Below, piece after piece: positions 6,777 through 25,240 of a stretch of 64,000 bases of DNA. The stretch spans positions 186,001 through 250,000 of the forward strand of contig JAUIJE010000007.1 in assembly GCA_030431455.1 (NCBI GenBank). Direction: 5' to 3'. The stretch is from a bacterium. Lineage in GTDB: Bacteria; Myxococcota; UBA727; JAUIJE01. The notes under the pieces were generated by a model that was not told the origin of the DNA, did no database searches, and saw only the letters and a program-made list of their open reading frames with translations. The position numbers and the translations under genes were made by a program. How positions within the stretch are numbered: position 1 is the stretch's first letter; each line of letters opens with the position of its first letter.

Positions 6777-6994
6777 GGGGACCTTTCCGCGTCGGGCGGT
6801 GGCGGGGCAAAGCTGGACAATAGATGGATGCCGCCGGGGCACAAACGTCACCCCGGCCCGGGACGCGGTGACGCGCACCGGGCGCCCATTCGACGACCAG
6901 GGCGCGTGCGTGCTCGACGACGGCCGCCCCTTGCGCGCGCTCGGAGCGCGTCCGGGTGGTCCCCCGCGCGTGCCCCAGCTGGTACAACCGGGGC

Positions 6995-8554
6995 ATGTGG
7001 GGGCGCTGGGCATTCCGGGGGGCATCGATCGCGCTGTGGCTGGCGTGCACCGCCGGCTGTGGCGTGGGCTGTGACGACGGGCCCCACGTGCCCGACCGCC
7101 CGCCGGCCCCGCCGCTGCAGGACGTGTCGCTGTTTTCGGACGCCTACCAGTTCCAGTGTTCGCCGGACCGGCAGGTGGGCTGCGACGGGGTGTTCGCGAT
7201 CCGGCGGCAGGCGGGGGACTTTCCCACCCATGTCGCGGTGTTGAAAAACGGCGACGAAGCCTTCCGGGCCCGCCTTCAGCTCATCCACAGTGCCAAGCGC
7301 TCGATCCGGATGCAGGCGCTGATCTTCCGCGGCGATGACAGCGGCTTGTTCATCAGCCAGGCGCTCAAGCGCAAGGCGGCCGAGGGCGTGGACGTGCGCG
7401 TCATCGTCGACGCCCTGTCCAACCTCGATTCCGACACCCAGTGGATGTACTTCGACCTCAAACAGCACGGCATCGAGGTCGAAGGCTACGAGACGCTGTA
7501 CCTCAACTGGATCGCGGCCGACTGGAAGATCGGCGATCCCCTCCGGGGCAACAAACGCTTCCACGACAAGATGCTCATCATCGACGCCGAGGACCTGCCC
7601 CAAGCCCGCGCCATCGTCGGCGGCCTCAACGTGGCCAACGAGTATTTCCGCATCGATCCCACCCCCCTCAACCGCTGGCGCGACCAAGACGTCGCCCTCA
7701 AGGGCTCGGTGATCAAGGACGTCACCCGGGGGTTCGATCGCAACTATGACTACCTGAAGGGGCTCAAAGAGCGCCTGCCCAAGATCTTCAACCCCGACAA
7801 CAGCTGGAAGCTCACCCGCGCGGTCCTCGATCGCATCAGCCGCCTGCAGTTCGACGAGGTGCGCGACCCGAAGCTGAAGGCCTCCATCGTCGAGACCTTG
7901 AAGACCCCGGCCAAGCTCACCTGGCGCGCGGTCAACGCCCGGTTCCTGCAATCCCGCCCCCGGTTCCGCGAGAGCTACATCTCCCAGGCCTACCTGCACC
8001 TGATTCGCACCGCCCAGAACTCCATTGACATTGCGAACGCGTATTTCGTGCCGTCCCGGGACCTGCTCGACGCCCTCAAGGACGCGGCCCGCCGGGGCGT
8101 CCACGTGCGCATCCTCACCAACAGCCCCATCACCAATGACATTGCGCCGGTGGCCACGATCTCGCGCCACCTCTACCAAGAGCTCCTCGACGTCAACCGC
8201 GAACCCGCGATGCAGCCCCAGGTCGGCCGCGGCCGCGGCCTGGAAATCTACGAGTGGATCGGACCGGACGTGGGCGAAGGCACCCTGCACGCGAAGTTCG
8301 CCCTGTTCGACGACCACAGCGCGATCGTGGGCAGCTACAACCTCGACCCGCGCTCGGAGGCGCTCAACTCCGAGACCGCCATCGCGCTCGAGGACGAGGG
8401 CACCGTCCGCGCCCTGCGCACCCAGTTTGTCCTCGACGACCTCAAAAAGAGCCACCTCGTGACCCCGGCCGAGGCCGCGCGGTACCGCAACCCCAAGAAC
8501 CTCGGCAAGCAGTTCGACCTGCTCTTCTCGCTTCCGTTGAAAAACTGGCTCTGA
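6995..8554 (+). CDS. Phospholipase D-family lipoprotein (two HKD motifs)
   Basis: A 519-residue protein with both halves of the PLD catalytic site: HDKMLIID in the first half and HAKFALFDDHSAIVGSYN in the second, each giving HxK(x)4D. The overall arrangement resembles cardiolipin synthases or secreted phospholipases, which transfer or hydrolyse phosphatidyl groups. Unlike membrane-embedded ClsA it has no pair of N-terminal membrane helices. Instead a signal peptide ends near TAGCGVGC, suggesting a lipoprotein facing the periplasm. The ATG at 6995 starts the signal peptide, and an upstream in-frame GTG (6956) is less likely. It is divergent from nhaA. Whether it makes cardiolipin or degrades lipids cannot be told from sequence. 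Confidence 0.85.
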   Translation: MWGRWAFRGASIALWLACTAGCGVGCDDGPHVPDRPPAPPLQDVSLFSDAYQFQCSPDRQVGCDGVFAIRRQAGDFPTHVAVLKNGDEAFRARLQLIHSAKRSIRMQALIFRGDDSGLFISQALKRKAAEGVDVRVIVDALSNLDSDTQWMYFDLKQHGIEVEGYETLYLNWIAADWKIGDPLRGNKRFHDKMLIIDAEDLPQARAIVGGLNVANEYFRIDPTPLNRWRDQDVALKGSVIKDVTRGFDRNYDYLKGLKERLPKIFNPDNSWKLTRAVLDRISRLQFDEVRDPKLKASIVETLKTPAKLTWRAVNARFLQSRPRFRESYISQAYLHLIRTAQNSIDIANAYFVPSRDLLDALKDAARRGVHVRILTNSPITNDIAPVATISRHLYQELLDVNREPAMQPQVGRGRGLEIYEWIGPDVGEGTLHAKFALFDDHSAIVGSYNLDPRSEALNSETAIALEDEGTVRALRTQFVLDDLKKSHLVTPAEAARYRNPKNLGKQFDLLFSLPLKNWL

Positions 8555-8565
8555 ACTGAAACGTC

Positions 8566-8813
8566 CGGAGGGGTTGTCCCCACCCCTCCGTCGTGGCCAT
8601 TCCGAACGAATGGCCCAAGCAACGCAAAGCGTTGCCAGGCCGCACCCGACTATTGGCCCTCGTCGGGCCGGCCTGCATCCTTCGGATGCAACGGAGCTGA
8701 AATTCCCTGAGGGGTCGTCCCCACCCCTCCGTCGTGGCCATTCCGAAGGAATGGCCCCAGCAACGCGAAGCGTTGCCAGGCCGCACCCGACTATTGGCCC
8801 TCGTCGGGCCGGC
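8566..8813. repeat. Two 105-bp direct repeats built of consecutive hairpins
   Basis: Copies at 8568-8672 and 8709-8813 are nearly identical and separated by 36 bases. Each contains, in order, a hairpin with ACCCCTCC as its right arm (8567-8589), one with GGCCATTC/GAATGGCC (8595-8615), one with GCAACGC/GCGTTGC (8619-8635), and one with CCCGAC/GTCGGG (8645-8667). The spacer adds TGCATCC/GGATGCA (8674-8690). In copy 2 the second hairpin gains a base pair, because C at the loop edge becomes G. It fills the space between the convergent PLD and mutT genes and contains the mutT stop codon. Confidence 0.9.
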
Positions 8814-9288
8814 TGACCACCTGGGCGGCCACGAACTCGTGCTCGCCGCTCTCCTCGAGCTCCGGGTGTGCGTCGGGCTCCTCGGCGACCAGACCCGACG
8901 CGATGCCGTGCACCAGGGGCCGGTCCGCGGGCAAAAACTCGCGCTGCTCGATGTCCTCTTGTTTGACCCACTCCAGCGCGTTGACCTCGATGGCCTGGGG
9001 CTCGCCTTTGACGATCCGGCAGCGGTACACCAGCAGGTGCATCTCGCGCGAGCCATAGCTGTGCCGGGTCTCAAAACAGCGGGTGCCGACCTCGACCTCG
9101 ACCGCCAGCTCCTCTTGCAGCTCCCGCCGCAGGGCTTGCTCGTCGCTCTCCCCCGCCTCGACTTTGCCCCCGGGGAATTCCCAGGACAGGCCCAGGTGCC
9201 GGCCCGGCCGCCGCTGGGTCAGGAGCACCTTGCCCCCTTTTCGAATCAGGGCCGCCACCACCCGCATGTGTTTTCGTGGCTCGCCCAT
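8791..9288 (-). CDS. mutT: Nudix hydrolase of the MutT type
   Basis: A 165-aa hydrolase. The Nudix box is clear at about residues 41-62, GKVEAGES then RRELQEELAVEV, with the metal-binding REUxEE core intact; the usual Gly after EE is Ala. The N-terminus (VVAALIRKGGKVLLTQRR) is typical of MutT, which removes 8-oxo-dGTP from the nucleotide pool. The usual domain ends near residue 130, and the last ~35 residues are an acidic extension. Its final seven codons and TAG lie within the hairpin repeat, so the C-terminus was probably reshaped when the repeat arrived. The start is four bases after the stop of the BamB-like gene, so it is the last gene of that operon. Confidence 0.85.
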   Translation of the reverse strand: MGEPRKHMRVVAALIRKGGKVLLTQRRPGRHLGLSWEFPGGKVEAGESDEQALRRELQEELAVEVEVGTRCFETRHSYGSREMHLLVYRCRIVKGEPQAIEVNALEWVKQEDIEQREFLPADRPLVHGIASGLVAEEPDAHPELEESGEHEFVAAQVVSRPDEGQ

Positions 9289-24610: not shown

Positions 24611-25240
24611 ATGATGCGCGCGCTTGGGTTGGTGATGGCTTCGGGTTTGTCTTTGCTCGTGGCGTGTGGGGGCGACAGCAACCAGAAGGCCGACGACAAG
24701 CCGACCCAGTCTGCGCAAAAAAATGAGTCGACCACCGGCACCCAAGGGGCCAAGCGCATCCCCGCGGACACCTTCGACGAGGGGTGTTGCGAGCGGCGCA
24801 ACCTCGACCTCAACGGCGACGGCGAACCCGACGCGTACCAGTTCTATGTGACCAAAGAAAAAGAGATCGTGGTCATGCGCAAAGAGGTCGACATCAACTT
24901 CGACGGCAAGATCGACCTGGTGCGCAACTTCGACGAGCGCGGCAACGTGGTCAACGAGCGGCTGGACACCGACTTCGACGGCAAGATCGACGTGGTCAAC
25001 TTCTTCGAGAAGGGCAAGATCGTGCGCAAGGAGTACGACACCAACTTCGACGCCGCCGTCGACGTGTTCGCGTTCTACGAGCAGGGACAAATCACCCGCC
25101 AAGAAAAAGACCTCAACCACGACGGCAAGATCGATTTCTGGGAGTACTACGAAAACGGTGTGCTCGACCGCTCGGGCATCGACCGCGACGGCGACGGCGA
25201 AGTCGACGAATGGGAGACGTTGACCCGCAGCGAGGGCTGA
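24611..25240 (+). CDS. Lipoprotein with tandem EF-hand-like calcium loops
   Basis: The ribosome site AAGGAG lies four bases before the ATG at 24611 (a second ATG follows directly). A signal peptide with lipobox (SLLVACGG) leads to a short linker and then at least six repeats of about 23 residues, each built on a D-x-[ND]-x-D-G-x-[IV]-D loop: DLNGDGEPDAYQF, DINFDGKIDLVRNF, DTDFDGKIDVVNFF, DTNFDAAVDVFAFY, DLNHDGKIDFWEYY, DRDGDGEVDEWETL. The fourth copy has lost a Gly and probably binds less well. Such arrays form elongated Ca2+-stabilised rods. About 209 aa. The role is unknown; a surface structural protein or Ca2+ sensor is plausible. Confidence 0.8.
   Translation: MMRALGLVMASGLSLLVACGGDSNQKADDKPTQSAQKNESTTGTQGAKRIPADTFDEGCCERRNLDLNGDGEPDAYQFYVTKEKEIVVMRKEVDINFDGKIDLVRNFDERGNVVNERLDTDFDGKIDVVNFFEKGKIVRKEYDTNFDAAVDVFAFYEQGQITRQEKDLNHDGKIDFWEYYENGVLDRSGIDRDGDGEVDEWETLTRSEG

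Follow-up and report, generated by a model that had tools for sequence, protein, structure and literature searches.

The array at positions 8553 to 8813 of the window (the 64,000-nt stretch of a Myxococcota contig analyzed here) is, judging from sequence comparisons, probably a composite array duplicated in tandem, with a member of a nonautonomous, lineage-specific family of mobile double-hairpin repeats at its core. The array sits in the gap between two convergent genes. Upstream, on the plus strand, is a gene with PLD-like domains (7064 to 8554; PF13091, E = 5.9e-40, and PF00614), whose TGA stop lies 11 nt before the first hairpin; the list of open reading frames gives this gene a longer start, at 6956. 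Facing it on the minus strand is a Nudix hydrolase-like gene (8791 to 9288; PF14815, E = 1.5e-23, and PF00293, E = 7e-21), whose last codons fall within the second copy of the repeated unit.

The two direct copies of that 120-nt unit, at 8553 to 8672 and 8694 to 8813 on the plus strand, are 93% identical, with nine differences and a start-to-start spacing of 141 nt; the second reaches into the Nudix gene at its 3′ end. Counting hairpins whose arms pair perfectly over 6 bp or more, nine lie between 8566 and 8808. The initial annotation had described a tandem repeat of stacked hairpins, with two 105-bp copies and a 36-bp spacer; this repeat is real, and our units are the same object cut slightly differently. 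The order of the array is A hairpin, module, copy of the Nudix gene end, F hairpin, A hairpin, module, and real Nudix gene end. The first A hairpin is G-rich (8566 to 8590, plus strand, 9 bp; CGGAGGGGT, a 7-nt loop, and ACCCCTCCG), and it matches the first hairpin of other arrays in type and position. It is followed on the same strand by a double-hairpin module at 8594 to 8637 (TGGCCATTCCGAACGAATGGCCCAAGCAACGCAAAGCGTTGCCA; covariance model E = 2.9e-13, G000:C4:194594-194637), which contains hairpins at 8595 to 8615 (8 bp) and 8619 to 8635 (7 bp). The fourth hairpin of copy 1 (8645 to 8667, plus strand) is weak, with 6 bp and an 11-nt loop, and belongs to the duplicated end of the Nudix gene (RPDEGQ-stop). 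The F hairpin (TGCATCC-TTC-GGATGCA; 8674 to 8690, plus strand, 7 bp) is a scaffold module of other arrays. Copy 2, also read on the plus strand, has its A hairpin at 8709 to 8729 (7 bp) and its module at 8735 to 8778 (TGGCCATTCCGAAGGAATGGCCCCAGCAACGCGAAGCGTTGCCA, the consensus form; covariance model E = 3.5e-15, G000:C4:194735-194778), with hairpins at 8736 to 8756 (9 bp) and 8760 to 8776 (7 bp). Its fourth hairpin (8786 to 8808, 6 bp, 11-nt loop) is again weak and covers the Nudix stop codon; in neither copy is the fourth hairpin a family module.

Hairpins of this kind are concentrated in the array. When hairpin starts were counted in 250-bp bins across the window, the array bin had seven and every other bin had three or fewer. 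The window has 266 such hairpins in 64 kb, which gives nine in 248 bp a Poisson P value of 1.4e-6, for a chosen segment and uncorrected for the ∼260 segments of the window. Folded as RNA, the array had a z score of −8.3 relative to shuffled sequences. The two copies differ by a change at a loop edge (C8607 versus G8748). The initial annotation had seen this change correctly and had read it as an extension of the second hairpin in copy 2, which is not likely: the consensus of the family has a 3-nt loop here, and thus the most likely event is the loss of a pair in copy 1, not a gain in copy 2. The second-hairpin loops of most module copies, including that at 8760 to 8776, are mostly GAA within GCGAAGC, a motif known as an unusually stable DNA mini-hairpin.

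The array core has many relatives in its own genome, a draft of 7.72 Mb in 28 contigs that is 96.9% complete. A 263-nt unit from the window gave 60 partial matches, and the hairpin GCAACGC-NNN-GCGTTGC, with one mismatch allowed, was found at 56 sites versus 3 for a reversed control. The initial annotation had asked whether the unit recurs in the genome; with ∼60 dispersed copies, it does not stand alone as a local duplication. What recurs is a double hairpin of 42 to 46 nt, consisting of a GCC..GGC hairpin, a linker (mostly 4 nt, ending in A), a GC..GC hairpin, and a C, for a consensus of (TG)GCC..GGC-NNNA-GC..GC-C. Subfamilies differ in their arms, which are GCCATTCC, GCCAATCC, GCCAAGC(C), GCCGAAC, or GGCGAAC in the first hairpin and GCAACGC, GCAATGC, or GCTGCCGC in the second. 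Each module has a strong predicted fold as single-stranded DNA.

Outside this genome the family was nearly absent from what we searched. A covariance model of the module gave 62 matches at E < 1e-3 in its own genome and one weak match in 117 relatives, none of them from the same genus or family; a DNA search of these relatives likewise gave one weak match, and no array was present at either site when inspected. The exact two-hairpin pattern had no matches in the contigs of GTDB genomes or in viral contigs, among which records of the same or very near genomes are possibly hidden, and a search of plasmids gave no match. The best Rfam match was RF02690, at 19.3 bits against a cutoff of 74. The nearest match in GTDB genomes to the TrpS protein encoded in the window is 64% identical and comes from an uncultured "Deltaproteobacteria bacterium." At one locus of a genome from the same order (L232, genome G006), a TAA stop is directly followed by a G-rich hairpin and then another one, as where an array begins, but the module is absent; this was a single case in 400 kb.

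Perfect hairpins had been a criterion in choosing our first alignment, and we therefore recounted covariation on copies found with a sequence-only model, although the training copies of this model had also been selected for perfect hairpins. Among these copies, 96.7% of cells were paired, compared to 87.0% in shuffled alignments, and 67 cells were altered on both sides, compared to 18.3. The covariation score was 0.206 versus 0.074 for the shuffles, none of which scored as high; slid registers gave 20 to 42% pairing. Thus, neither a lack of other copies nor a lack of covariation, both named as refuting by the initial annotation, was observed among the copies of this one genome. Template-switch repair of imperfect palindromes can likewise produce compensatory changes, with no selection needed, and the paired changes seen here do not separate selection from such repair.

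We tested where the arrays lie relative to genes, using ∼0.8 Mb plus the loci around the repeat, with genes called by a simple codon-usage script. All of the 38 array sites examined were intergenic and touched the 3′ end of a gene. Convergent gaps, which make up 9.5% of intergenic length, held 21 of the 38 sites (P = 2e-12), whereas divergent gaps, which make up 33%, held none (P = 2e-7). The typical array begins with a G-rich hairpin that lacks a T-tract and usually starts no more than ∼11 nt past the stop codon; conserved scaffold segments follow, with modules at several places. The first hairpin has a constant orientation. That the A hairpin is nearly always beside a stop codon is not predicted by random insertion. 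The array had been described as not a normal terminator, and the results support this: its hairpins lack a T-tract, and the genome does contain ordinary terminators with a hairpin and a T-tract at other places.

To look for insertion, we joined the flanks of each module and searched the joined sequence against loci of the same genome. Uninterrupted matches were found for many modules, at several different target sequences. Empty and filled sites pair, for example, L006 with L209, L018 with L178, and L004 with L028; L011, which belongs to the GCCAAGCC/GCTGCCGC subfamily, matched L006 at 98.6% over 72 nt. Some modules lie inside other elements: in the stem of the first hairpin (L210 versus L178), within the loop of another hairpin (L024 versus L064), and within IS5-derived sequence (L022 versus L162 and L164). 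Because the same flanks occur elsewhere with no module, the modules appear to insert precisely, including into other hairpins and into an element derived from the IS5 family. No constant target-site duplication was seen across the modules, and their targets differ; at the module edges, TG began 27 of 38 copies and C followed all 38. Since there was neither a constant target-site duplication nor an identifiable enzyme, we infer transposition from the empty sites. All of this evidence comes from pairs within one genome, and some pairs could reflect old arrays that lost modules or whole arrays that spread by recombination. The suggestion of a palindrome-rich mobile module is nonetheless borne out by the ∼60 dispersed copies, the precise empty and filled pairs, and the nested insertions.

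The same suggestion had likened the module to REP elements and their RAYT transposases, and this part was not supported. The Y1 transposase domain (PF01797) had no match in the draft genome, so the REP-associated transposase was not found, while 5 of 14 controls were positive. The GTAG/CTAC tag was in none of 38 module flanks, and CGTC was upstream in only 4 of 38. The two hairpins of a module are unlike sequences in a row, joined by NNNA, and not an inverted pair of REPs. Membership in the REP/RAYT group is therefore not supported, given the lack of both PF01797 matches and tags. Retromobility was likewise rejected, as the reverse transcriptase domain (PF00078) had no match in the genome and was positive in 3 of 14 controls. 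The IS91-type domain (PF04986) also had no match in the genome, but it had none in any control either. At 96.9% completeness, the draft assembly could miss the gene for the mover. On inspection of the sequence, neither an integron attC site nor a CRISPR was evident in the array.

The position of the arrays could instead mean that a functional RNA came first. On this hypothesis, rows of hairpins are kept at gene ends because they stop transcription with no need of a T-tract, hold off 3′ exonucleases, or shield convergent genes from each other, and the rows spread by recombination between gene ends, not by transposition. The structured 3′ RNA proposed at the outset would fit both the 3′-end position and the covarying arms: all 38 sites are at 3′ ends and none is divergent, the convergent bias is strong, the first hairpin is mostly within ∼11 nt of the stop, and its orientation is constant. 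However, only a minority of genes carry arrays, and the genome has ordinary T-tract terminators. Moreover, a purely functional model does not need modules inside IS5-derived elements or modules that interrupt other modules, and we consider it unlikely as the origin of the family. Far less probable still is that a GC-rich gene end was duplicated locally by chance. The pair of copies in the window is truly a tandem duplication that includes a gene end, and as an account of how the array doubled this explanation still holds; for the modules it is refuted by the ∼60 dispersed relatives of the array core, a hairpin density far over the window background, and the strong covariation.

An IS5-family element of ∼990 bp is present twice in the genome (L215, 1433 to 2423, and L217, 1521 to 2511); its transposase is encoded in two frames that overlap (PF13340 and PF01609), and CTAG is present at both ends. 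The arrays might be miniature elements that were moved by this resident transposase to CTAG targets. The ends of the element are CTAGAGCACGTCTCAAAATCGCC, and several arrays finish in a similar sequence, TTTTGGGATGTGCTCTAG; by hand tally, the nine arrays counted with this right end all begin at CTAG. In a sample of loci (L033 to L072, 0.8 Mb), CTAG was depleted about twentyfold (113 sites observed versus 2,344 expected), and a third of the remaining sites (39 of 113) were at stop codons. Insertion at CTAG would place arrays behind stop codons, since this sequence seldom occurs in genes but is enriched at TAG stops, and TAG was the stop at 22 of 33 scaffold arrays, again by hand tally, versus 19.5% generally (P = 5e-9). 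But the left end of the arrays has no matching inverted repeat, array orientation is constant even though CTAG is palindromic, about a third of the arrays (including that in the window) follow TGA, and the double-hairpin modules insert at sites other than CTAG. Movement by the IS5-family transposase may explain the scaffold and part of the location, but not the modules, and as an account of the arrays it seems improbable. Separately, four loci (L022, L023, L155, and L176) have miniature elements that are derived from IS5 ends and carry a double-hairpin module.

If the modules are mobile repeats, as we favor, they would multiply as folded single strands, of DNA or RNA, using an enzyme supplied in trans, and would often land in other palindromes. 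Copies would survive at 3′ ends since they are tolerated or harmless there; alternatively, a row of hairpins past the stop codon may protect the 3′ end of the mRNA or limit convergent read-through. Later, a 141-bp duplication step would have doubled the array in the window and copied the Nudix gene end along with it.

How tiny palindromic repeats that lack their own enzyme move is an open question in both organelles and bacteria. The usual mover of REPs is apparently missing from this genome, and because the family has ∼60 copies, covarying subfamilies, intragenomic empty sites, and nesting, its unit, boundaries, and targets can be defined exactly. REP, BIME, and REPIN sequences are short, palindromic, intergenic, and mosaic, occur in tandem clusters, and favor convergent gaps and 3′ ends (PMC3733652, PMC3116915). 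In this broad sense the module resembles them, with many copies, intergenic sites, hairpins, and mosaic clusters near gene 3′ ends. Unlike REPs and REPINs, the family has no RAYT/Y1 gene, no GTAG tag, and no conserved CGTC, and it has unlike hairpins, a 4-nt linker, and nested insertions into hairpins. Closest in form are mitochondrial double-hairpin elements and GC clusters, which are GC-rich palindromes of ∼40 nt, single or double, proposed to be mobile and to merge and shuffle, with no dedicated enzyme known (PMC4478555, PMC2800124). The likeness is one of described form; our modules differ in that they lie in a bacterial chromosome, at the 3′ ends of genes. It is a tentative idea that the module is a bacterial counterpart of these elements, that is, a transposable DNA of minimal size (∼44 nt) that enters other palindromes without a Y1 transposase or reverse transcriptase and builds nested arrays of hairpins in 3′ untranslated regions.

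Cyanobacteria have small dispersed repeats, which form hairpins, show nesting, and may be mobile; as described, these are like the modules in their very small size, hairpins, and nesting. As in IS5-family MITEs, some arrays have a right end that is similar to the inverted repeat of the IS5-family element in this genome, but the arrays lack a left inverted repeat and the modules are not bounded by IS5-type ends. The bacterial stem-loop repeat families EFA-1 and Pae-1 are described as having a predicted double hairpin (PMC2267715). By that description they share this form with the modules, so the form itself is not new; the available part of that report describes no nested empty and filled sites for EFA-1 or Pae-1. 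The modules belong among the small dispersed palindromic repeats, as a variant that is new there.

Two other kinds of repeat were seen. Within the window, 24789 to 25206 has repeated units at spacings of 33 to 84 nt with Asp-rich coding motifs, possibly protein repeats of a calcium-binding type. A second dispersed repeat, of ∼90 to 100 bp (CTAGTGTCCAGCGACGAGACGCCCGATCGGGCG..TTTTGAGATGCGCTCTAR), lies directly behind TAG stops, in constant orientation, at L156, L165, L170, L171, and L182.
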